Shown piece after piece: positions 2,871-38,835 of a stretch of DNA of 64,000 nt. Below the pieces are notes generated by a model that ran no database searches, was not told the origin of the DNA, and was given only the letters and a program-made list of their open reading frames with translations. The stretch is from Actinocorallia sp. API 0066 (GTDB lineage Bacteria > Actinomycetota > Actinomycetes > Streptosporangiales > Streptosporangiaceae), in the NCBI RefSeq assembly GCF_020991275.1, contig NZ_JAJLQY010000006.1, forward strand, positions 62,001-126,000, read 5' to 3'. Both the position numbers and the translations under genes were made by a program. Positions within the stretch are counted from its first letter, which is position 1; each line of letters opens with the position of its first letter.

Positions 2871-2884
2871 CCGACGAGGAAGAC

Positions 2885-2912
2885 GAGGGGTACACGACAG
2901 CGTGTACCCCTC
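2885..2912 (+). terminator. 12-bp-stem hairpin after the DUF2637 gene
   Basis: GAGGGGTACACG (2885..2896) and its exact complement (2901..2912) flank a 4-nt loop, 14 bp after the stop codon. Position and strength suggest a terminator for the 1438..2870 operon. It is also the first of a run of hairpins in this tract. Confidence 0.6.
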
Positions 2913-2934
2913 ATCGCGTTCCTGCCCGCGAAAG

Positions 2935-3259
2935 GTGCCGCCCGCGCGTATGGGGGCTGAGGGGAGTTCGCGGCATTCAACATGAATGCCGCGATGTGCC
3001 GCCCGCGCGTATGGGGGCTGAGGGGTACGCGCAAAGTGCGCACCCCTGGCGGCCCGCGCTACCCGCGCGTACGGGGGAATGGGGGACGTCGAGGCGGCCC
3101 GGAGGAGGAGGCCAGGTCAATACCCTCTCGCGGGGTATTGCGTGCCGTCCGCGCGCGCGAGGGTGAGGGTGCCCAGTTCTCCCGCGCGGAACAACTGGAG
3201 TGCCGCCCGCGCCCATGGGGGCTGAGGACATCGCGGCACCCTTCGGGGGCGCCGCGATG
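2935..3259. repeat. Five 28-bp repeat units at about 60-bp spacing, with self-complementary spacers
   Basis: Units begin at 2935, 2996, 3056, 3142 and 3200. The first two are identical over 30 bp; the fifth matches at 26 of 28 positions; the third and fourth match at about 20. The core is GTGCCGCCCGCGCG, a variable trinucleotide, then GGGG..TGAGG. Distances are 61, 60, 86 and 58 bp, leaving spacers of 33, 32, 58 and 31 bp. Spacer 1 is a hairpin with a 12-bp perfect stem (2968..2994). Spacer 2 is a near-perfect one (3022..3046). Spacer 3 ends in an 8-bp stem (3118..3140). The last unit is followed by a 9-bp stem with an inner CCC/GGG (3229..3259). The repeat resembles type I-E CRISPR repeats, but no cas gene is present and palindromic spacers are not expected of captured DNA. 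No convincing gene lies here. Confidence 0.75.
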
Positions 3260-3681
3260 CCTGGGTCACGCGGGCAAGGAGACCTTCAGCCTGAATGCCT
3301 CCCTCGTAGCGGCTCATGCGCGCGCGGGCCAGGCTTTTCGGTACGGCAGTAAAAAGCCTGGTCAGATGGGGTGTGGGATGCGCGGTCATATTATTACCCC
3401 GAACTTCACACGTCGGCGCGCTCCGGCTCGGGGACCCGGGCGAGTTCGCGGGCCTGACCCTCGTTCGAGGGGGCGGGGAGACCGGTCCCCAAAATTTTGG
3501 GGACCACCGACGCGGCCTCGATGAACTGTGAGGCGCGCCGGTCCGAGAACCCCCACCGCTCGCGGCAGTAGTTCGGTCAGGTCGCGCGGCTGGCGCAAGT
3601 TCGCGGCGGGATTCGCTGTGAACGGCGAAGTCCCGCCCTTACCTTTGGAGTTGTCGAGGCTTCAAAGGAAGGTGCGGGACT
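3260..3681. promoter_or_regulatory. Non-coding tract with three further dyads upstream of the XRE-TPR gene
   Basis: No supported gene is seen. Three self-complementary sites stand out. A 10-bp stem lies at 3329..3338 with 3352..3361 (CCAGGCTTTT and its complement). A perfect 22-bp palindrome is at 3484..3505 (GGTCCCCAAAA followed by its complement). A dyad at 3606..3636 (GCGGGATTCGC against GCGAAGTCCCGC) sits about 45 bp before the ATG at 3682 and is well placed to be an operator for the regulator. The 22-bp palindrome is AT-rich at its centre, unlike its surroundings. Confidence 0.55.
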
Positions 3682-4914
3682 ATGCATCAAGGTAGCACTG
3701 GTCCGGTAGAGCCGGGCCTGTCCACTGGGGAGCGCATCAAGTTCTTCCGGATGCGCCGGGGGATGACGCGCGATGTTCTCGGCGGGCTCGTGGGTAAGTC
3801 GGGGCGGTGGGTGAAGGCGGTGGAATCCGGCCAGATCCAGACGCCGCGCCTGCCCGTGTTGGTGAGCATCGCCGAAGTTCTGAAAATCCGGGACCTCTCG
3901 GAGTTGACGGGCGGGCAGTCGATGCCGACGAACATGTTTCGGGGGCCGGGCCATCCGGCCCTTTCCGCTGTCCGGGATGCCGTCAACGAGGTCGGGAGTA
4001 GCGCCGACGTCGAAGCGCAGTCGGTCGCATCACTTCGGGCCCGGCTCGCGGCGGCCTGGCGGGCGCGGCACGCGGCACCGGATCATCGGACCGTGATCGG
4101 TGAACTGCTGCCGGGCCTGATCCGCGGCGGGAAGGCCACCGTGCGCGCGCGTCGCGGCGATGAGCGGCGGGAAGCACTCGCGACCTTGGCGGGGATCTAT
4201 CACCTCGCGCAGTTCTTCACCGCGTACCAGCCCGATACGGGGTTGCTGTGGCGGGTCGCCGAGCGGGGCTTGATGGCGGCGGAGGAGTCCGAAGACCCGA
4301 AGGCGCTCGCAGATTCGGCATGGCTGCTGGTCGAGGCACATCGCGATATCGGAGACTTCGACGCGGCGGAATCCGTCGCTCGTCGCGCTATCGAGCAGGT
4401 CGCGCCGCATCTCGACGGTGCGGGCGATGGCCTTGTCGGCGCGTGGGGTGGGCTGCACTTCGCTGCCGCGTACACGGCGGCGCGGGCGGGTGAGCGCGGC
4501 ACGGCTTGGCGGTGGTGGGAGAAAGCCGACGCGGTGGCGTCGCGTCTGCCTGCTGGCCATTACGATCCGATGACCTCGTTCGGCCGCGCGGTGATGCCCG
4601 CGCATGCGGTAACCGTCGCGGTCGAACTCCGGCAGAAGTCCGAGGCCGCCCAGCAGACGCGCCGCGCCGCGAACACCGCTATTCCGTCAGCGCCACGCCA
4701 GGCCAGGCACCTGGTCGAGATGGCGCGCGCACACCAGATCGGCGGGGACTCTGCCGATGCTCTCGCCACCTTGCGTACCGCGTTCGCCACGGCCCCCGAG
4801 ACGGTCCGGTTCAACGGGTACGCCCACCGTATGATCCGCGATCTGGCCGAAGGCCCGCTCCATCTCAGGGGGGACGCTCGCGTTCTCGCTGATCGGGTCG
4901 GTCTGCTCGTGTGA
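3682..4914 (+). CDS. XRE-family regulator with C-terminal TPR-like repeats
   Basis: The 410-aa protein carries an N-terminal helix-turn-helix at about residues 16-75 (GERIKFFRMRRGMTRDVLGGLVG, then GRWVKAVESGQ), followed by about 300 residues of alanine-rich helical hairpins of the TPR type (for example GIYHLAQFF, ADSAWLLVEAHRDIGDFDAAE). This architecture is very common in actinobacteria, where the repeat domain is thought to sense a ligand or protein. It heads a compact plus-strand cluster. In a prophage it is the best candidate for the lysogeny regulator, but it could be cargo. Dyads upstream, especially 3606..3636, may be its operators. Confidence 0.82.
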   Translation: MHQGSTGPVEPGLSTGERIKFFRMRRGMTRDVLGGLVGKSGRWVKAVESGQIQTPRLPVLVSIAEVLKIRDLSELTGGQSMPTNMFRGPGHPALSAVRDAVNEVGSSADVEAQSVASLRARLAAAWRARHAAPDHRTVIGELLPGLIRGGKATVRARRGDERREALATLAGIYHLAQFFTAYQPDTGLLWRVAERGLMAAEESEDPKALADSAWLLVEAHRDIGDFDAAESVARRAIEQVAPHLDGAGDGLVGAWGGLHFAAAYTAARAGERGTAWRWWEKADAVASRLPAGHYDPMTSFGRAVMPAHAVTVAVELRQKSEAAQQTRRAANTAIPSAPRQARHLVEMARAHQIGGDSADALATLRTAFATAPETVRFNGYAHRMIRDLAEGPLHLRGDARVLADRVGLLV

Positions 4915-5324: not shown

Positions 5325-5413
5325 CGGACCTGATCGTGGCCGGGATCATCGCCGTGCTGTTGTGGGTGGTCCTGATGGTCGCCCTGGTGGTGTGGGCGAG
5401 GGCGGGCCGGTGA
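5321..5413 (+). CDS. 30-aa single-pass membrane peptide
   Basis: A GTG start at 5321 overlaps the upstream stop, and the stop at 5411..5413 overlaps the next GTG. The peptide is almost one transmembrane helix (LIVAGIIAVLLWVVLMVALV) followed by a basic WARAGR end. Tight coupling on both sides supports translation. The role is unknown; small membrane peptides in prophage arms can act in exclusion or lysis control, which is speculation here. Confidence 0.6.
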   Translation: MTDLIVAGIIAVLLWVVLMVALVVWARAGR

Positions 5414-5694
5414 GGGCGCGCCGTCAGTGCACCGGCCTGCATGTCGCGCTCGGCGGCGACGCGGAGCCCCTGGAGTGGGTGCCGTGGCCGGGTGGTACCG
5501 CGCGGGTGGTGGAGTCCACGTGTGCCCGGTGCGGGGACGGGGCGATGTATGAGTGGGCGATGGTCGGGGGCGCGTACCGGGTCATGCGGCATGACCGCGC
5601 GGGCCGGGTGTCCATGTATCCCTCGGGGCTGGTGGCGCGCCGGGCGCAGGCGCGGGACGCGTGGGGCCGCATCCTGGCTGGCGAGGCCCGGTAG
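5410..5694 (+). CDS. Hypothetical protein, last gene of the XRE-led cluster (94 aa)
   Basis: The GTG at 5410 overlaps the preceding stop. The protein contains one CARCG pair and aromatic-rich strands (VPWPGG, MYEWAMVGGAYRVMRHDRAGRVSMYP), then a basic helix at the C terminus. It is not recognised as a named family. A strong terminator follows 12 bp after the stop. Confidence 0.6.
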   Translation: MRARRQCTGLHVALGGDAEPLEWVPWPGGTARVVESTCARCGDGAMYEWAMVGGAYRVMRHDRAGRVSMYPSGLVARRAQARDAWGRILAGEAR

Positions 5695-5753: not shown

Positions 5754-6023
5754 CTACCGGGCGTCGTAGCCGCGCGGCGGTGCGCTCTCGGTCGGCCGGT
5801 AGACGGGCTGGGTGTCCACGATCCCGAGACCGAGCAGCCACCGGCCGATGACCGGCCAGCGGCTCTCGGCCCAGCGGATCACCCAGTAGGCGGTGCCGCC
5901 GACCGTGGCGGTGACGACGATCTCCACCGCCGCCGAGTCCAGGGTGATCCCGGCCTTGGCGGCGAGGGTCAGCAGGTGGGCGATGACGATCGCGGACACG
6001 GTCCGGATCACGGAGTCGATCAC
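5754..6023 (-). CDS. Small membrane protein, probable holin
   Basis: The 89-aa protein starts at GTG 6021..6023, overlapping the amidase stop as GTGA. Two hydrophobic helices are visible: VIRTVSAIVIAHLLTLAAKAG and, after a short acidic link, VEIVVTATVGGTAYWVIRWAE; a charged tail follows. A small protein with this layout directly downstream of the endolysin is the usual position of a holin in actinobacterial phages. Family membership is inferred from context and topology. It is the last gene of the late operon. Confidence 0.65.
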   Translation of the reverse strand: MIDSVIRTVSAIVIAHLLTLAAKAGITLDSAAVEIVVTATVGGTAYWVIRWAESRWPVIGRWLLGLGIVDTQPVYRPTESAPPRGYDAR

Positions 6024-6778
6024 GAGGGGCTTCCTTCGGGCTTGAGGAGTTCCAGGACCTGGTCGAGCTTGGCGTTGGTGGTGGCGAGCTGCGACTTGAG
6101 GCTCGACACCTCGGTCTGGAGCGCGCGGACCTTCTTGTTCACGTCGGTGAGCACCGACGACGGCATCCACGTCGGGTTGGTGGGGTCACCGTTCGGGGCA
6201 GGCATGGCGTCCCGCTGCCAGACGGCCTTGTAGATCTGTTCGGGAGTCATGCCGTCGTCCTCCGTGGTGGTGGTGTCGGGGCGGGGTGCTCCGGCCTTCA
6301 CCCACGCGTACAGGGGGCCGCCGGGGCAGCTCGTCGCGTAGCCGTCGCGGTGGCCCTTGATCTCGGTTCCGGCGCCGCCCTTGGCGCGCAGGTGCTCGAT
6401 GGCGTCGCGGATGCCGTGCAGCATCTCGTCGTTCGGCACGACGAGCCCGCTGTTGCCGACCATGCCGAGCACCGCGTAGTGCCCGCTGTTCAGGCCCGGG
6501 CCGTTGGCGGCGGGCAGCTTGTGCAGGCCGCGCCCCTCGAAGACGAACCGGTGCGGACAGCACAGGAACGAGTACCCGATGTCCGCCCACCCGTTGTCGT
6601 CCATGTGGCCGTTCTGGATCTGGCGGACGAGCGCGTAACACAGGTCATGGTCGGTGGCGAGGCGCGGGTCCACCCGGCTGCCGGTGTAGTGCACCTTCAC
6701 CCCGCGTGTGCTGGCGAGGTGGGACGCCGCCGAGCGGGGCGCGCGTGCGCCCCACTGGGCGCGGGTGATCAGCTTCAC
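6020..6778 (-). CDS. Endolysin: PGRP-type N-acetylmuramoyl-L-alanine amidase
   Basis: The GTG at 6776..6778 with GAGGAG just upstream is preferred over a TTG six codons earlier. Amidase domain: TRAQWGARAP near the start, then VHYTG with the zinc ligand His30, GWADIGYSFL around residue 64, and GHRDGYATSCPGG with ligands His143 and Cys151. This is the peptidoglycan-recognition/amidase-2 fold that cuts the bond between muramic acid and the peptide. After residue 165 an acidic, threonine-rich linker leads to a C-terminal coiled coil (VRALQTEVSSLKSQLATTNAKLDQVLELL), which may allow oligomerisation. The gene overlaps the putative holin. No lysin B (mycolyl esterase) is seen, which fits a host without mycolic acids. 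Confidence 0.9.
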   Translation of the reverse strand: MKLITRAQWGARAPRSAASHLASTRGVKVHYTGSRVDPRLATDHDLCYALVRQIQNGHMDDNGWADIGYSFLCCPHRFVFEGRGLHKLPAANGPGLNSGHYAVLGMVGNSGLVVPNDEMLHGIRDAIEHLRAKGGAGTEIKGHRDGYATSCPGGPLYAWVKAGAPRPDTTTTEDDGMTPEQIYKAVWQRDAMPAPNGDPTNPTWMPSSVLTDVNKKVRALQTEVSSLKSQLATTNAKLDQVLELLKPEGSPS

Positions 6779-10823: not shown

Positions 10824-13180
10824 CGGGCGGACCCTCTCGCGAGCCTGGAGCCGAGCACGAGCTGGACATCGCCGCCCTTGACGGCGATCCGGTGGCGCAG
10901 CTCCTCAACCAGCAGGTCCCCGTACCGGGACCCGTCCCCCCGGATCTCGATCACGGTCTTCTCGCGGGCAGCGGGGGCGGGCGAGTACGCCCACGCCGAC
11001 CCGACCGACGTGTTCGGGCTGGCGGGCGCGGTCGCCCCGGCGAGCTTCGGCTTGGCCGGAGAGACGCCCCTGGTGAACATGTTCGGGGGCGCGGCGGCGG
11101 CGGCGAGTTGCATGGACGCGCCTCGGACGAGGGTGGCCGACGAGGTGATGCCGTCGGCGAGCATCCCGCCGATCTTCGCGCCCGCCAGGTCTGGAGAGCC
11201 CTTCCCGCTCAACGGGCCCTCCTTCGCCGGGGAGAAAGGAAGGAAGTTTCTGATCCGGCTGGCGATGCCGGACATGGCTGAGCCCACGCGGCCGATCATG
11301 GACGTGATGCCGTTGATCAGGCCCGTGATCACGTTCCGCCCGGCGTTGTACAGCAACATGTTGAGCCGCCCGAGCGCGGCCAGGATGCGGCCGGGCAGGC
11401 CGCGCAGCCACGCGACGAGGTTCTGGGCCCGGCTGACGGCGGCGTCTCGGACGCGTCCGAACCACCCGGCCACCCGGCCGGGCAGGGCCGCGATCCAGCC
11501 GACAGCGGCCAGCGTGCCCCGCACCGCCGTCTGGACGCGAGCGACCACCCAGGCCCACGTGCTCGACGTGGCGTTACGGACCGTTGTCCAATGCTTGATG
11601 ATCAAGCCGGGCCCGGTAAAGTTCAAGAAGAGGTTGGCGAGGAACCGGAGGACGCGCACGAACACGGCGCGGATGGCCTCCCACGCGGCGGCGGTCTTGT
11701 TGGTGACCCAGTTCCACGTCGCCCCGGTGTAGGTCTTGACCTTGTCCCAGTTCAGGGCGACCAGGGCGACCAGGGCGAGGACGGCGGCGATGACGAGGGC
11801 GGCGGGTCCCATGGCGATGAGCCAGGCCAACGCCACCCGCCCGGCGGCGAGCGTCGATTGCGTGCCCATGACCACCCACCCCGCGACGTAGCGGGCGGAC
11901 GTCACGGTCATGGCGGCGCTCGTCCGCGCCATGCTGGCGACCATCGACGCCGTGCCGGACGCGACGGCGGTCGCCGCCATCGCCGCGCCGCGTGCCATCG
12001 CGGGGAGCAGTTGGGCCCCGGCGATGGCGGCCATGGCCAGGCCGCCGAGTCCCGAGGCGGCCGGGGCGAGGGCCTGGGCCATGCCGGTAGCGGCCTGGGC
12101 GGTGTCGCCGAGCACGCCGGGCGCGCCGACGAGCGAGGCCATCGCGGACTCCGTCTTGCGCTTCCAGGACTCGATGCCGGTGGCGGCGTTGTCGTTGAGG
12201 GTGTCGCCCATGCGCTGTGCGGCGCCTTCGACGTCGCCGAGCGCGGACACGGCCGACGACGGGTCGAGCGCGTACAAGGAGTCACCGAGGTCTTCGGCTT
12301 TGGTGCCGAACAGCTCGACGGCCATGGCGTTCCGCTTCACCGGGTCCTGGATCGCGCGGAGCTTGTCCAGCGTGAGGTCGAGGGCTTGGGCGGCTTCGGG
12401 GCCGCCCTTGCCGAGCGCGGCGAACATCTTGTCGGCGTTCAGCCCGAGTTCGTCGTAGGCGTCGCGGATCTTGTCGGACCCGGCGACGGCCTCGATCGAG
12501 AACTCCTTGATGGCGTCGGCGACGACGTCGGCGTCGCGGGCACCGGCCTTGAGCCCTTGCGACAACAGGCCCATCGCGGTCTGTCCGTCCAGCCCCATGT
12601 TCCGGAACTGGGTGGAGTACTCGGTGAACGTGTCGAGAAGGTCGGCTGCCTCGTTCGCCCCCGACTGGAACCCGACCGTCAGGATGTCCAGGGCCTCCGT
12701 GGCGTCCTTGGCGAGCCCCGTCTTGATCATCTTGCCGACGGCGCGGGACACCTCACCCACGTCCTCGCCAAAGGCCGTGCCGAGATTGACGACGCTGCCG
12801 GTGACGGCCTTCAAGTCGGCCTCGCTCGCCGCCGCCATCCCGTCGATGTTGGTGACTACGCCCCGGATCGCGTTGTTGACCTCCTCCAGTCCAGAGCCCA
12901 GCCCCTGGGCATACAGGTCACCAGCGGCCTTTCCGAGCCGCTGCGCCTCAGCCTCGCTCCCACCGAGCTGCGCGGCGAGCTTGTCGCCCAGGCGCTCCTT
13001 CTCCAGCGCGGCGGTGACGCCGACGCCGATCGCGGCGGCGGCCCCCGCCCCGATCGCCGCCCCGGCCACGGCCAGCTTCTGCCCGTGCCGCTCGAAGAAC
13101 CCCTGCGTGCGCTCAAGGTCCCGCCCCACCTGGTCGGCGTCCACGCCGATCCGGACCATGAGGTCACCCAGACTCGCCAC
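10820..13180 (-). CDS. Tape measure protein (786 aa)
   Basis: GTG start at 13178..13180. The N terminus reads MVRIGVDADQVGRDLERTQ, then a hydrophobic AGAAIGAGAAAAIGVGVTAAL stretch, then the long helical GTAFGEDVGEVSRAVGKMIK and FRNMGLDGQTAMGLLSQGLK segments typical of TP901-type tape measure proteins. Two strongly hydrophobic clusters lie at about residues 360-480, and a repeated VIGLINGITSMIGRVGSAMSG/FLPFSPAKEGPLSGKG motif occurs near the C terminus. It sets tail length; 786 residues would imply a tail of roughly 115-120 nm if the usual 1.5 angstrom per residue rule holds. It overlaps the next gene by ATGA. Confidence 0.92.
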   Translation of the reverse strand: MASLGDLMVRIGVDADQVGRDLERTQGFFERHGQKLAVAGAAIGAGAAAAIGVGVTAALEKERLGDKLAAQLGGSEAEAQRLGKAAGDLYAQGLGSGLEEVNNAIRGVVTNIDGMAAASEADLKAVTGSVVNLGTAFGEDVGEVSRAVGKMIKTGLAKDATEALDILTVGFQSGANEAADLLDTFTEYSTQFRNMGLDGQTAMGLLSQGLKAGARDADVVADAIKEFSIEAVAGSDKIRDAYDELGLNADKMFAALGKGGPEAAQALDLTLDKLRAIQDPVKRNAMAVELFGTKAEDLGDSLYALDPSSAVSALGDVEGAAQRMGDTLNDNAATGIESWKRKTESAMASLVGAPGVLGDTAQAATGMAQALAPAASGLGGLAMAAIAGAQLLPAMARGAAMAATAVASGTASMVASMARTSAAMTVTSARYVAGWVVMGTQSTLAAGRVALAWLIAMGPAALVIAAVLALVALVALNWDKVKTYTGATWNWVTNKTAAAWEAIRAVFVRVLRFLANLFLNFTGPGLIIKHWTTVRNATSSTWAWVVARVQTAVRGTLAAVGWIAALPGRVAGWFGRVRDAAVSRAQNLVAWLRGLPGRILAALGRLNMLLYNAGRNVITGLINGITSMIGRVGSAMSGIASRIRNFLPFSPAKEGPLSGKGSPDLAGAKIGGMLADGITSSATLVRGASMQLAAAAAPPNMFTRGVSPAKPKLAGATAPASPNTSVGSAWAYSPAPAAREKTVIEIRGDGSRYGDLLVEELRHRIAVKGGDVQLVLGSRLARGSAR

Positions 13181-13888: not shown

Positions 13889-14314
13889 TCAGGACTCCTC
13901 GGACAGGTCCGGCGCTCCGGACACCTTGAACGTGACGGACGCGGACAGCTTGTCGTCGTGCGGCGCTTCCGGCTCGAAGCCGGTCATGATCGCCGCGAAC
14001 GTCCAGGTGGTCAGCGCCGGGTCGGGAAACTGGATCTGGTAGTTGCGCGGGTCCACGTCGTCGAAGTCCGCGACGAGCACGTCGTGCAGCGCCGGGTCGT
14101 AGTTGATCTCGATGGAGACCTCGCCCGCGTCCACCAGGCCGCCGATGAACTCCCGTCGCCTGTTGGGGCTGTCGTGCGAGGTGACGTCGTAGGTGTCCCG
14201 GCTCATGCCGGGCGGGGTCACGTTCGTGACCTCGGCGATCGCGACGAACGCCTCGGTGGGGGTCGCTCCGTTCCCGCGCAGGAACTTCGTTCCGAAGCCG
14301 TCGATGCCTGCCAT
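13889..14314 (-). CDS. Major tail (tube) protein (141 aa)
   Basis: The ATG at 14312..14314 is the start. The sequence MAGIDGFGTKFLRGNG, then AIAEVTNVTPPGMSRDTYDVTSH and RREFIGGLVDAGEVSIEINYDP is the pattern of the lambda gpV/SPP1-like tube protein family (phage tail tube protein). Subunits stack as hexameric rings around the tape measure. At 141 residues it is close to the usual size without an extra Ig-like C-terminal domain. It lies just upstream of the chaperone gene. Confidence 0.87.
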   Translation of the reverse strand: MAGIDGFGTKFLRGNGATPTEAFVAIAEVTNVTPPGMSRDTYDVTSHDSPNRRREFIGGLVDAGEVSIEINYDPALHDVLVADFDDVDPRNYQIQFPDPALTTWTFAAIMTGFEPEAPHDDKLSASVTFKVSGAPDLSEES

Positions 14315-29135: not shown

Positions 29136-30187
29136 CGTCCAATAAGTCCTTTCTCGGTGTACTCGAAGCCCCGGGCCGGGACCTGGGAGCCGGTGCCGGG
29201 GGCGTGGCGGGTGTCAGGCGGCGGGGCGGCGAGCCGGAAGTACTCGATCCCCAAGTTGTGGAAGCCAAGCTGAACTTTGCGGCCGAGTGCGTGGGCGGCT
29301 TTAACGAGCCGTTCGGGGTCCTTGCTCTCGGCGAGCAATTCCTTGGCCTGCCTGCCGATGTTGGCGATCTGGCGGCGGGTGGGGTCCTCGCCGTTGGTGG
29401 CGGCGCGCACGCCGTCGATGTAGGCGGCGACGACGGCGTCGGCTTTCGGCGACGCCTCCGGCTTGGCGGCCTTCGGTTTGGCGCGACTCCGCTTCGGCTT
29501 CCCTTCGGGTGACGGGGTGGGCAGCGGGACCACGATCCCGCCGTCGTCGCCGATCTGGGTCTGTCCGTCGAGCTGTCCCGCGCCCGCCGTCGCCGGAGGC
29601 GGCGGGGAGGGGGGTACAGGGGCGGTACAGAGGGGCGGTAGGACGGTATGGGGGTCAAGTTGTCCCGGATTCCGGTCAACTTGTCCCGGACATTGGCTTT
29701 GTCCGGTCAAGTTGTCCTGGACTCCGGTCAACTTGTCCTGGACATCCACCGCCGTCCCTGACAAGTTGTCCTGGACGGTTCCGGTCAAGTTGTCCTGGAC
29801 GGCGCGGGTCTGCCGCTTGCGGGCCGCGTCTTTCTGGCGTTCGGCTTCAGCCTTCTCCTCAAGAGCCTTCCGCTCGGCCTCAAGGTCGCGGCGGCGGTGC
29901 ATCGCGAGGTTCCACCGGTTACAGCCGCCCGCCGTCGCCCCAGCGCGGACGATCAGGTCGGCGGCCTCCAGGCGGGCGAGGGCACGTTGAATCGTCCGGC
30001 GGTCCTGCCCGGTCCGGAGCTGGAGTTCGGTCATCGCGGGCCAGGAGTCGCGGCCCTGCTTATCGGCGCGTTCGGCGAGGGCGATCAAGACGAGCCGGGC
30101 GGCGCTATCCGCCGTCGGCTTCCTGTCGCCGCCCGTGGCGGGGATGGGGGCGTGGTCGAGCGCCCACAGGATGGCCTCGACACTCAC
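29132..30187 (-). CDS. O-like replication initiator with internal iterons (351 aa)
   Basis: The GTG at 30185..30187 overlaps the upstream stop. The N-terminal domain (about 1-95) is a winged helix: LVLIALAERADKQGRDSWPAMTELQLRTGQDRRTIQRALARLEAADLIVRAGATAGGCNRWNL, a pattern of phage replication initiators. Then comes a basic coiled coil, a repeat region with VQDNLTG/VQDKLTG units (about residues 127-180), a Pro/Thr-rich linker, a Lys-rich stretch and a helical C-terminal domain (AVVAAYIDGVRAATNGEDP, then GRQAKELLAESKDPERLVKAAH). The repeats encode 16-bp DNA iterons. This is the layout of lambda O, in which ori lies inside the gene. Confidence 0.83.
   Translation of the reverse strand: MSVEAILWALDHAPIPATGGDRKPTADSAARLVLIALAERADKQGRDSWPAMTELQLRTGQDRRTIQRALARLEAADLIVRAGATAGGCNRWNLAMHRRRDLEAERKALEEKAEAERQKDAARKRQTRAVQDNLTGTVQDNLSGTAVDVQDKLTGVQDNLTGQSQCPGQVDRNPGQLDPHTVLPPLCTAPVPPSPPPPATAGAGQLDGQTQIGDDGGIVVPLPTPSPEGKPKRSRAKPKAAKPEASPKADAVVAAYIDGVRAATNGEDPTRRQIANIGRQAKELLAESKDPERLVKAAHALGRKVQLGFHNLGIEYFRLAAPPPDTRHAPGTGSQVPARGFEYTEKGLIGR
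29654..29799. repeat. Six 16-bp iterons inside the initiator gene, candidate prophage origin
   Basis: The consensus is GTCAASTTGTCCYGGA (S is G or C; Y is C or T). Copies start at 29654, 29675, 29706, 29727, 29760 (GACAAG... variant) and 29784. Distances are 21, 31, 21, 33 and 24 bp, so two pairs are two helical turns apart. A weaker copy may lie at 29567. They fall in the non-domain linker of the protein. Confidence 0.75.
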
Positions 30188-30610: not shown

Positions 30611-31486
30611 CTACGCGGGCAGGCTGAGCTGCCGCCCGTGGGCGTCGAGACGGCCGGTGCCACCGAGACGCCGGTGCAGGGCCTCCAAGCCCTTGACGGT
30701 CACGCGGACCTGCGGCGGGTCGAGGACCAGCAGACCGGTACGCGGGTGGTAGTGGGACTGGGGCAGGATCGACAGGTGGCCGCTGGTCACACGGTCCTGC
30801 TTGGGCGTCCACGCGCCGTCCGGCCCGGACCGGAAGATCCAGCCGAGCCGCTCCAGCTCCCGGAACAGGCGGCGCTGCCCGATCTCGATCGACGGGTCGC
30901 GGGAAAGCAGTTTCGCGGCCTGGGCGACATCGACGTCGCCGTCGGCGGTCGCCAGCACGTCCCACGCCTCGGCCTTGGGCTCGGCCTCGGCGAGCCGCTC
31001 TTTGGCCTCCTGGCGGGCGGCCCGCTCGGTGCGGGCGATCTGCACGGCGCGGGTGGCCTTGGCCGCCAGCGTCTCGATCAGGTCCAGCTCGCCGCCCTCA
31101 GTGATGGCGGGTGCGGCGTCGGCGACCTCGGCCTGGCGGGCCCTCGTCGCGAAGTACACCTTCGCGTCGGCGACGGCCTGCTTGGAGCCGTCGCACTCCA
31201 GGGCGACCATGTACGCGCCGAACCTGGTCAGGCGATGGTCGGCGACCTCGCGACTCGCTCCCGAGCCGATCGGGACCATACTGCCGGTGTCGGCAATATG
31301 GTCGTGACCTGCGCCTTCGCCCAGCGCAAGGTCGATAGCGGTACGGGCGGACAGAACGCGGTCCTCGAAGTTCCCCCAGCGGGAGTAGCCCAGCAAGGGC
31401 ATGAGGTCGCGGGCGGTCCAGTACTCGCCGCGCTCGTCCATGCGCCTGATCGCGTCGAAGGGCGAGGTGTGGGCGAGGCCGCTCAC
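30611..31486 (-). CDS. Phage antirepressor with C-terminal KilA/ANT-type domain (291 aa)
   Basis: The N-terminal part (about 1-130) reads SPFDAIRRMDERGEYWTARDLMPLLGYSRWGNFEDRV and RLTRFGAYMVALECDGSKQAVADAKVYFATRARQAEV, matching the DinD/BRO-N-like damage-inducible group. The C-terminal part (about 175-290) has AAKLLSRDPSIEIGQRRLFRELERLGWIFR and VRVTVKGLEALHRRLGG, the ANT/KilAC domain. Such proteins lift repression or act in the SOS switch. It is first but one in the early operon. Confidence 0.88.
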   Translation of the reverse strand: MSGLAHTSPFDAIRRMDERGEYWTARDLMPLLGYSRWGNFEDRVLSARTAIDLALGEGAGHDHIADTGSMVPIGSGASREVADHRLTRFGAYMVALECDGSKQAVADAKVYFATRARQAEVADAAPAITEGGELDLIETLAAKATRAVQIARTERAARQEAKERLAEAEPKAEAWDVLATADGDVDVAQAAKLLSRDPSIEIGQRRLFRELERLGWIFRSGPDGAWTPKQDRVTSGHLSILPQSHYHPRTGLLVLDPPQVRVTVKGLEALHRRLGGTGRLDAHGRQLSLPA

Positions 31487-32643: not shown

Positions 32644-33537
32644 TCACACGTCCCCGAGCCCGAGCCTGCGGGCCTCCTCGATCGCCCGCTTCTGGGACGT
32701 TGACCGGCTGTACCTGTCGATCATGGCCCGCGACGACCACCCCGCCGACGCCAGCAGGCCGTTCTCCGAGCCCCCGGCCTCCAGCCAGCGCCCAGCGAAG
32801 GTGTGCCGGAGTATGTGCGGGTGAAGCCACGGCATCCCGGCGGCGGCCCCGCGTTGCTTGAACATCTGGTGGAGCGCGTAATACCCGAAACCCTGCCCTC
32901 GATCCCCCAGCCACAACGCGGGAGTCTCAGCAAGCTTGTGAGAGCGCCGTAGTCTCAGGTACCGGTCGATGGCGCGGGCGGTTTGCGGACCAAAGGCGAC
33001 GCGGCGGCCCTTGCCGCCCTTTCCCCGCCGGATCGTCGCGACACCGTCGCGGATACTCACATCTTGCATGCTCATTCCGACGACTTCACCGGCCCTCGCG
33101 CCCGTCTCGGCCATGAGCCGGATGATCGCCTCGTCCCGCCGCGCCCGCAGGTCCCTGCCCGCGCACGCAGCGATGAGGTCGGCCAGTTGCTCTTCGGTGA
33201 GTTCCGGGACGACGGGGTCGTCCGCCTTCGGCAGCGTGAGGGTGGCCAGCTCGTGGTGGTCGGTCTCCTCCTCTTCGGCCAGCCACCGGGAGAATTGCTT
33301 CAGCGCCTTGGCGCGGGTGCGGACCGTCTCGGCGGACGCCCCAGCCCTCAGGAGGTCGGCGAGGAACGCGGCGGCACTCCGGCGGTCAAGGGTGTGGTCG
33401 CCCCCGTTGTCGCGCGCCCACGCGCCGAAGCGGCGGGCGGCCGTGCCATAGCCCCGGAGCGTCTGGGGACTCTTCCGCTCGGCGGTGAGGTGGATCAGCC
33501 AGGACTCGGTCAAGGCGTCGTACTCCGCAGCTTCCAT
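32644..33537 (-). CDS. int: Tyrosine integrase (297 aa)
   Basis: A XerD/lambda-Int-type recombinase. The N-terminal core-binding SAM-like domain spans about 8-92 (LTESWLIHLTAERKSPQTLRGY). Catalytic residues seen: Arg148 in ETGARAGEV, a Lys in RGKGGKGRR, His241 and Arg244 in HPHILRHTF, Trp267 in GWSS (in place of the usual His) and nucleophile Tyr276 in RYSRST. There is no large arm-binding N-terminal domain, as in simple integrases. It lies 106 bp from the attR core. A TAGCGC/GCGCTA dyad at 33556..33568, just upstream of the start, may control it. Confidence 0.93.
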   Translation of the reverse strand: MEAAEYDALTESWLIHLTAERKSPQTLRGYGTAARRFGAWARDNGGDHTLDRRSAAAFLADLLRAGASAETVRTRAKALKQFSRWLAEEEETDHHELATLTLPKADDPVVPELTEEQLADLIAACAGRDLRARRDEAIIRLMAETGARAGEVVGMSMQDVSIRDGVATIRRGKGGKGRRVAFGPQTARAIDRYLRLRRSHKLAETPALWLGDRGQGFGYYALHQMFKQRGAAAGMPWLHPHILRHTFAGRWLEAGGSENGLLASAGWSSRAMIDRYSRSTSQKRAIEEARRLGLGDV

Positions 33538-37659: not shown

Positions 37660-38835
37660 TTATATCGCCCCCACCCATTCCGCGTAGCTGATGAGAGACT
37701 GGGGAGGAGTCCTATGCAGACGGAGAAGAGTGCCGAGCGCCTCGCGAACTTGGGGATGCTCGCGAACGTGTTGCGGCGCGATCCGGCGTGCGTTCTGGAG
37801 GGACCGGAAGGCATCGTCGCGTCGCCCGGTCCAGAGCTGGGCACGCGCTACCTCAAGGAAGTAGTGGGAGCGTCGTTCGGCCGGGAATCCGGTCGGCGGG
37901 CTCCAACCACCCGCAGCTGTGACCGCCCGACCTCCGTCACCAAGTTCCACTGCCATGGATACCTCATGCACCCGCATCGAGTCTGGGCCGAAAGCCGTGC
38001 CGCTATAGACGCCCTCAGGGACGAGCGAAGCGAACTTGCGGGCCTGCCTCATGTGCTCGTCAGGGACTTCTGAATCCGCTAGCAGGCGAGCGGCCACGAC
38101 TGCGGCACGCATATGCAGCGCGCCAAGAGCGGCAACCTCTCTCGTGGTTCGTGGTGTCGGAATGACCTTCAGAGAATCTTGGAGAGCACGCAACCCAGGT
38201 GCTAGGTTGCGGCTCGCGAAGAACGTCTCTGTCCGGACATAGGCGACAGTCGCCGTCAAGACCCTATCCTCCGCCAGTTCGGCCGACTGGCGCATGATCT
38301 CGATCATGCGCGCGGACAGGTCGTAGTAGCCATATTTGTAAGCGATCGAGTCCGCCGCGCGATAAGCAGTTGTGAACAGCGCAGTAGCCTGCCGCCGGTG
38401 ATCGGGGCTTCCGGTGTGGAGCGCTCTGGACAACTCGCTCAAGAGATCCGCGATCGTCCCGCTGAGGCGGGTGTACTGCGACGCGAGTCTCTGCGCTGTA
38501 GCTTCATGGACAGCCGTCCGCAATTCGTTCAGCGGGCGAACGGCCCCCTCTTCCGGAAGATCGTAGGCGTCTACTGCCCGGCGGATCTCGGGTATCGCTC
38601 CGTGGACACGGCTGTTCGACCTACCTTCCACTCCTGTCAACCGTTCCGGCTCGACTCCCAGCGCATCGGCGACCGCGAAGAGAACAGGTTCAGTGACCGC
38701 TCTGCTACCTTGTTCGATCTTCCGGAGCGTGCTCAACGAGATGTGTGCGGCTTCGGCCAGCTCTGGCTGGGACATGCGCCGAGCCGTACGAGTGGCAGCG
38801 ATCTGCTTACCGATCGATGGTGCGGGAACCGCCAT
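37660..38835 (-). CDS. XRE-family regulator with TPR-like C-terminal part (391 aa)
   Basis: N-terminal helix-turn-helix at about residues 8-65: GKQIAATRTARRMSQPELAEAAHISLSTLRKIEQGSRAVTEPVLFAVADALG. The rest is helical-repeat-like (RRQATALFTTAYRAADSIAYKYGYYDLSARMIEIMRQSAELAED, ALGALHMRAAVVAARLLADS). It resembles in layout the prophage regulator at 3682 but its sequence differs. It lies upstream of the small-gene pair on the same strand. Codon use is less GC-rich in places than neighbours. Confidence 0.85.
   Translation of the reverse strand: MAVPAPSIGKQIAATRTARRMSQPELAEAAHISLSTLRKIEQGSRAVTEPVLFAVADALGVEPERLTGVEGRSNSRVHGAIPEIRRAVDAYDLPEEGAVRPLNELRTAVHEATAQRLASQYTRLSGTIADLLSELSRALHTGSPDHRRQATALFTTAYRAADSIAYKYGYYDLSARMIEIMRQSAELAEDRVLTATVAYVRTETFFASRNLAPGLRALQDSLKVIPTPRTTREVAALGALHMRAAVVAARLLADSEVPDEHMRQARKFASLVPEGVYSGTAFGPDSMRVHEVSMAVELGDGGRAVTAAGGWSPPTGFPAERRSHYFLEVARAQLWTGRRDDAFRSLQNARRIAPQHVREHPQVREALGTLLRLHRTPPQSLISYAEWVGAI

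Follow-up and report, generated by a model that had tools for sequence, protein, structure and literature searches.

A decayed CRISPR-like array with palindromic spacers in an Actinocorallia prophage and its sister arrays in related actinobacteria

With five GC-rich units of 28 nt, and inverted repeats lying between and around them, the tract at positions 2882-3260 of the 64-kb stretch of Actinocorallia sp. DNA analysed here (hereafter the window) raises the question of how an array with CRISPR-like geometry came to lie in a prophage and what it might do there. The array is found between a DUF2637 gene (2082-2870, + strand; Pfam DUF2637, E 1.3e-17), on the 3' side of which it lies, and a gene for an HTH transcriptional regulator (3682-4914, + strand; phrog_5823, E 1.3e-96), at the left end of a prophage that spans at least the endolysin gene (6020), the tail, portal and terminase genes and a tyrosine integrase gene (32644-33537), after which ordinary host genes follow. 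A left border was not found; the host genes of the right flank align with relatives, and the left 6 kb does not. The array is placed inside the prophage because of the regulator and its phage homologues, which sit shortly past the endolysin gene in the Streptomyces phages OnionKnight, Cumberbatch and Chymera. DUF2637 relatives were detected neither in a protein scan of the viral collection nor in phage records. A further phrog_5823 regulator is encoded at 37660-38835, past the integrase and among host genes; it and the regulator at 3682 belong to one family.

The units start at 2935, 2996, 3056, 3142 and 3200, with steps of 61, 60, 86 and 58 bp that leave gaps of 33, 32, 58 and 30-31 bp, most of which are inverted repeats; this geometry, given in a preliminary description of the locus, was confirmed by repeat search and by the sequence. 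The same description spoke of a prophage array without cas genes, and none was indeed found in the subset of window proteins that was scanned, or seen beside the array. In the common orientation, the unit reads GTGCCGCCCGCGCGTATGGGGGCTGAGG. Units U1 (2935-2962) and U2 (2996-3023), both identified by repeat search, have the same sequence, with identity over 30 bp, and the copies at 3200 (87%) and 3056 (73%) belong to the same repeat family. U5 (3200-3227) differs from U1 by two mismatches in 28 nt, while U3 (3056-3083) and U4 (3142-3169) have diverged, all five being on the + strand. U3 is the most I-E-repeat-like of the window units tested; U4 is decayed, with a 1-nt deletion and a stem that appears broken by eye, and is absent from the repeat-finder list because its alignment requires a 1-nt gap. 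With two of the five units identical and steps ranging from 58 to 86 bp, the window array displays near-identical repeats at a period of about 61 bp only in part. By eye, its units do not form the I-E stem-loop of the Cas6e type, since U1, U2 and U5 offer four pairs including a G.U and U4 is broken. Type I-E adaptation would leave G as the first gap base, and G occupies this position in all four window gaps when U4 is counted as 27 nt. A sigma-70-type promoter for the array was looked for and not found. Searching 341 genomes of the family for the unit, with up to three mismatches, returned the array itself and five lone sites, one per genome and all in the same genus; the two of these sites that were inspected both fall inside ORFs. 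A 26-letter unit pattern had no match in the named genome collection, seven single matches in viral contigs were dismissed on reading as chance coding matches, and the tract, when compared by blast with phages and plasmids, had weak partial matches only.

Hairpins are clear in three of the four window gaps and imperfect in the second. The first, H1 (2968-2994, inside the 33-bp gap 2963-2995), has a perfect 12-bp stem and a 3-nt loop; H2 (3022-3046) is weaker, with one A.C and one G.U by eye and a strict Watson-Crick p of 0.38 against shuffles; H3 (3118-3140) is an 8-bp palindrome in the 58-bp gap 3; and H4 (3173-3198) comprises 6+3 bp with an internal loop. Outside the inter-unit gaps, hairpin H0 (2885-2912; 12 bp, 4-nt loop) lies directly 3' of the DUF2637 stop codon, and H5 (3229-3259), past the last unit, is in part like H1. 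The initial portrayal of the spacers as nearly perfect inverted repeats is true of gap 1 only, where 12 of 12 bp pair, because the strict Watson-Crick score gave p<=0.01 for two of the four gaps and 0.013 for a third. As an RNA, the tract folded better than each of 100 dinucleotide shuffles on both strands (z -3.2 for the + strand and -5.9 for the - strand), but the preference for the minus strand is not backed by mismatches, the imperfect pairs in the hairpins (tallied by eye) favouring neither strand. No Rfam family reached its gathering score anywhere in the 64-kb window, and the idea of a free-standing, structured regulatory RNA was rejected as unsupported on these two grounds.

Actinomadura, Streptosporangium and relatives were found to carry sister arrays with homologous units, and several of these share the window array's position on the 3' side of a DUF2637 gene; judging from their named members, the hosts would be Streptosporangiaceae in the GTDB sense. 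Repeat and palindrome scans of 90 DUF2637 rows (window and duplicates included) pointed to unit-like repeats with palindromes 3' of DUF2637 in Streptosporangium amethystogenes (NZ_JOEQ01000024; L021/L084) and in genome G275 (L026/L083). Scanning the named genome collection for a pattern of two units returned 87 stretches, including genuine CRISPR arrays and an array of Actinomadura meyerae (L145). DNA search of 340 genomes with the A. meyerae array retrieved G226, Actinomadura sp. NBRC 104412 (G205, NZ_BSTM01000038) and others, and blast of the same array against phages and plasmids gave weak partial matches only. The four A. meyerae units follow one another at steps of 61, 61 and 61 bp with gaps of 33, 33 and 33 bp, which is the exact type I-E geometry, and the steps and gaps of the NBRC 104412 array are the same. 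The G226 array has five units (two variants) in a 61-bp register, about 1.6 kb 3' of a DUF2637 gene. A regular period of about 61 bp with near-identical units is thus seen in these three arrays; unit spacing is 62 bp with a gap of 34 bp in S. amethystogenes, and G275, with spacings of 53 and 95 bp (gaps 25 and 67 bp), has no such period. In the common orientation, the units are GTCCGGCCCGTGCGCACGGGGGCGGGGA for A. meyerae, GTCCGGCCCGTACGCGCGGGGGCGGGCT for NBRC 104412 and GTGCGGCCCGTGCGCACGTGGGCAGGGG for G275. The first gap base is G in three of three NBRC 104412 gaps and in two of four A. meyerae gaps. The window copy is the decayed end of this array series, and the decayed mini-array, one of several readings offered in the preliminary description, is the one that fits it best. 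Salinisphaera orenii, a gammaproteobacterium whose genome gave no Cas6e match, also has a pair of I-E-like units (L215, reverse strand 5382-5470) spaced at 61 bp and separated by a 23-bp palindrome; upstream of the pair is a stretch that by eye resembles a tRNA.

Homology of the units is supported by shuffling. The scores of window U1 against the A. meyerae unit and one of the G275 units (G275b) were reached by 0/300 shuffles each, as were those of the A. meyerae unit against the NBRC 104412, G275a, G275b and S. amethystogenes units. The relationship of U1 to the remaining sister units is less clear (G275a, 0.013; S. amethystogenes, 0.010; NBRC 104412, 0.047; G226, 0.163). When 11 units were compared with I-E repeats, background p was at most 0.032 for eight and 0.073 for the other three (range 0.001 to 0.07). 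Such likeness is moderate and, taken from the unit sequences alone, would be weak evidence for I-E kinship. The kinship with I-E CRISPR suggested at the outset draws its support chiefly from the 28+33=61 geometry of the sister arrays and less from the units themselves.

The surroundings of the arrays lend themselves to another explanation, namely that regulatory palindromes (operators, terminators, or a replication or transfer site) of DUF2637/GntR elements make up an array, acting at the DNA or RNA level, whose CRISPR likeness in unit and spacing is coincidental or superficial. In the window, G275, G224, G108 and G226, the array has a DUF2637 gene on its 5' side. In G275, G224 and G108, it is flanked by DUF2637 on one side and by a small GntR or HTH regulator on the other, and the A. 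meyerae array adjoins a GntR gene. Unit-free palindromes follow DUF2637 genes on the 3' side in G275:C12 and G132, some of the screened DUF2637 loci have palindromes without clear units, and the units themselves hold palindromes, such as one of 7 bp (by eye) in those of A. meyerae. No DUF2637 gene was found in 8.0 kb around the A. meyerae array or in 6.6 kb around that of NBRC 104412. We nevertheless regard this explanation as unlikely: operators would hardly account for the gaps of exactly 33 bp that, in A. meyerae and NBRC 104412, separate 28-nt units of the same or nearly the same sequence, for a 33/33 match that is bounded by the gap, or for matched sites inside coding sequence (the antirepressor and DUF2637 genes and an ORF of L274), as detailed below.

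Where the spacers match bears directly on their origin. Two A. meyerae spacers have 33/33 matches at neighbouring sites elsewhere in their own genome, on a different contig, in an ORF beside a GntR-like gene (by eye). A spacer of NBRC 104412 is matched 33/33 in G275 by a palindrome that has DUF2637 on one side and a GntR-like frame (by eye) on the other; the match stops at the gap borders despite the longer query. A different NBRC 104412 spacer agrees with the DUF2637 gene of the window at 27/33 positions, 24 of them in a single uninterrupted block, with an AAG flank; this gene contains GGGTACCCGGATCGTGGGTACCCC at 2558-2581. The same spacer also matches window gap 2 (3023-3055; 26/33), ending exactly at the start of U3. 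A G226 spacer matches (28/33, ungapped) the antirepressor gene of the window prophage (30611-31486, - strand), at the palindrome it contains (31274-31303). A reversed-window control, made with other spacers, reached 25/33 at best, which the 26/33 and 27/33 matches only slightly exceed. Type I-E has a set of AAG-type PAMs; AGG and AAG flank two of the NBRC 104412 spacer matches, and CCC and CTG, neither of them an I-E PAM, flank the two A. meyerae matches. An origin of sister spacers in foreign or mobile DNA is thus indicated by three 33/33 matches, plus those of 28/33 and 27/33 to the window prophage.

The hairpins of the window have counterparts of the same kind. H3 recurs with 28/29 identity on the 3' side of a DUF2637-like gene in G132 and with 23/25 in an NBRC 104412 spacer, so that two window gaps resemble two spacers of one sister array. 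H0 matches 26/26 an antirepressor-like gene of G349, where it encodes KGYTTACTPGG; L305 and G349 give the same protein and probably represent one phage. The H0 palindrome occurs in six viral contigs, five times at KGYT.ACTPGG, a count from which its conservation cannot be judged because the search selects for the palindrome. Three KGYT.ACTPGG proteins were scanned, of which one had KilAC, one Bro-N above the cut-off and one Bro-N below it. H2 can be aligned to a stretch of viral contig L304 that encodes an antirepressor loop, with a local score of 20 where the highest among 60 shuffles was 17. For H1, only two exact palindrome matches in viral contigs were found, which are not a convincing source, and H4 has no source. 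When H1 to H5 were searched across the family, no match surpassed the H3 site; the exact patterns of H3 and H2 were absent from the viral collection, and joined spacers blasted against phages and plasmids gave weak partial matches only. The earlier statement that the spacers are not captured protospacers is contradicted by the 33/33 matches of sister spacers elsewhere and by the in-register 26/33 match of gap 2, and is further countered by the recurrence of tract hairpins in an antirepressor gene and beside a DUF2637-like gene. As a separate observation, positions 560-1010 of L304 (IMGVR_UViG_2597490183_000001) contain three in-frame palindromes encoding GYTSACTPGG, GTQIVGTPGG and GYELVRTPGG, which are antirepressor-loop-like, and a unit-like GTCCGGCCCG lies near this run.

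Self-complementarity sets these spacers apart. Across six mobile arrays, 12/16 gaps reached p<=0.01, compared with 4/145 ordinary CRISPR spacers: two of four in the window, three of three in A. meyerae, two of three in NBRC 104412, three of four in G226, and the single gap in each of S. amethystogenes and Salinisphaera. Each gap was scored against its own single-letter shuffles (300 for mobile arrays, 100 for controls), and the control spacers came from five genomes (G000 with two loci, G108, A. meyerae, G366, and L039 of G066). The sample is biased by selection, A. meyerae and Salinisphaera having been noticed for their palindromes among the 87 pattern matches and the window array having been singled out in the preliminary description; when these three arrays are set aside, the count is 6/8 gaps (NBRC 104412 2/3, G226 3/4, S. 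amethystogenes 1/1). The arrays of G275 and G108 were omitted because their gap borders are unclear. Also left out of the test were L144, L212, L165 and L180, which have a palindrome too, the second gap of L212 being without one. To our knowledge, palindromic spacers have no accepted rationale in CRISPR.

These counts weigh on the possibility that the prophage took up a leftover, ordinary host CRISPR array in which inverted repeats arose later, for instance by template switching. Capture of a host array is easy to imagine because ordinary CRISPR arrays occur near DUF2637 genes, being found within 1.3 kb 3' of such genes in 5/82 rows. The 82 rows include the window and one locus twice (L014, L080), and the comparison with the other side of the gene is weak because few loci had upstream sequence. 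Yet sister arrays with intact units already carry palindromic spacers, and the hosts' own arrays have other repeats and rarely palindromic spacers, which makes this scenario very improbable in our judgement. The five arrays near DUF2637 (L018, L038, L039, L090 and L097, in G154, G080, G066, G070 and G188) are ordinary and long, with several repeat types; near three of them, 10 neighbouring ORFs were scanned, and no cas family was matched.

The host possesses the machinery that such an array could exploit. Its assembly (G000; 7.0 Mb, 44 contigs) contains two type I-E loci, designated C3, with Cas3, Cse1, Cse2, Cas7, Cas5 and Cas6e by NCBIfam and Cas1 by Pfam, and C4, with Cas3, Cse1, Cas6e and Cas1e among the subset of C4 genes scanned. 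The host I-E arrays have a period of 61 and the repeats CGGTTGACCCCCGCCTGCGCGGGGCTGAC and CTCGCCCCCGCACCCGCGGGGATGCTCC, neither of which equals the window unit (global scores 6 and 9, maximum 28). The check proposed in the preliminary description, a host I-E search with repeat comparison, thus yielded two systems but no closely matching repeat. Window U1 scores best with the host C4 repeat (p 0.003, 300 shuffles; 0.02 for the G000a repeat). Mimicry of the own host's repeats is not supported, the A. meyerae units standing at 0.053 against their own host and at 0.017 against the G275 repeat. Cas6e was present in six of eight genomes tested (G000, G275, G108 and those of L145, L144 and L212), a raw count, and absent in G224 and the Salinisphaera genome; host Cascade would therefore often be available.

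Host spacers also match the window prophage. Of 57 compared with the window, one C4-locus spacer matches 33/33 in the tape-measure gene (11520-11552, - strand) with a GCC flank instead of AAG. C4-locus matches with AAG flanks were found at 13893-13925 (30/33) and 6002-6034 (26/33, with a 21-nt exact block), the latter barely exceeding the maximum of 25/33 in the reversed-window control. As proof of anti-CRISPR activity, this host immunity is weak, since the perfect match has a GCC flank and those with AAG are mismatched.

A CRISPR origin explains most economically the homology of the units, the 33-nt gaps at a 61-bp period in clean members, and the matches between gaps and other elements. We put at about even the chance that the tract is a decayed, cas-less mini-array of I-E geometry, belonging to a family on mobile elements, built by host I-E systems, transcribed and acting in trans as decoy or guides. 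Adaptation by the host I-E system would account for the 33-nt spacers and for the AGG and AAG flanks of two matches. The arrays would then be transcribed and act in trans through host Cas6e and Cascade, whether by supplying decoy crRNAs that tie up Cascade or by providing guides against rival elements. Because a palindromic guide would be expected to fold back on itself, it might be tolerated even where it matches resident DNA, as in A. meyerae, and might still load Cas proteins. With two units and one gap decayed in the prophage copy, the window array may be a relic.

A working weapon between elements, whose crRNAs direct host I-E Cascade and Cas3 against competing prophages and DUF2637 elements, would agree with sister spacers that match the antirepressor and DUF2637 genes of related elements, two of them with AAG or AGG flanks, and archaeal viral mini-arrays are described as acting in this way (PMC11656645). 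However, palindromic guides should self-fold, the units differ from host repeats, the window stem is short (four pairs with wobble, by eye), and two A. meyerae matches have CCC and CTG flanks. Activity would moreover be self-destructive because these two spacers match their own genome 33/33, and we hold a working weapon to be quite improbable. Returning to the mini-array that we favour, a bolder form of it would see cas-less arrays of I-E geometry as a distinct class in high-GC actinobacterial elements, with spacers chosen or retained as palindromes, that is, as self-folding guides drawn from antirepressor genes and the 3' hairpins of DUF2637 genes, which would jam Cascade without self-cutting or silence rivals through an identical RNA hairpin. 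This proposal is tentative, and we think it rather unlikely to hold as a whole.

Comparison with known systems places the arrays near several of them. As in actinobacterial type I-E arrays, their units are 28 nt long, GC-rich and built around a central inverted repeat, and their spacers are 33 nt at a period of 61 and match mobile DNA; they differ from these in that no cas genes were seen alongside, in their non-host repeats and palindromic spacers, and in having few units. The Racr RNA anti-CRISPRs (PMC10651486) are prophage intergenic repeat mimics in hosts with a matching subtype, and I-E Racrs are reported there, but a Racr is a solitary unit, unlike the array of five units with palindromic spacers found here. 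The window host does have the same subtype, I-E, and the unit is only moderately above background against the host repeats. An RNA anti-CRISPR decoy is a possible reading of the tract. Viral CRISPR mini-arrays (PMC11656645) share the short cas-less array on a mobile element and spacers against related elements; the known ones are described as having host-identical repeats and only one or two spacers. The SRUFinder survey of viral repeat mimics (PMC10651486) discards clustered repeats, so arrays of the type seen here would probably escape it. The 'self-complementary spacers' of PMC4814470 are pairs of spacers from the same protospacer and not palindromic spacers. Among titles and abstract openings of the open literature, arrays with palindromic spacers were not described, which is no proof of their absence.

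On sequence comparison, the sister copies point to a little-known kind of CRISPR-like array. If palindromic spacers are functional, they would represent CRISPR mimicry with a testable rule, that of self-complementary guides; if they were kept only as inert, they would offer a natural record of selection against autoimmunity. The association with the arrays also gives DUF2637, a family of unknown function, a testable context.

Two further features of the window deserve mention. At 29668-29780, short direct repeats at 52, 57 and 78 bp lie inside the replication-initiator-like gene and are possibly origin iterons. Over positions 1-64000, strong palindromes (score >=10) number 20, compared with 3-6 in eight order-2 Markov runs, and are thus four to five times as frequent; many of them may be terminators.
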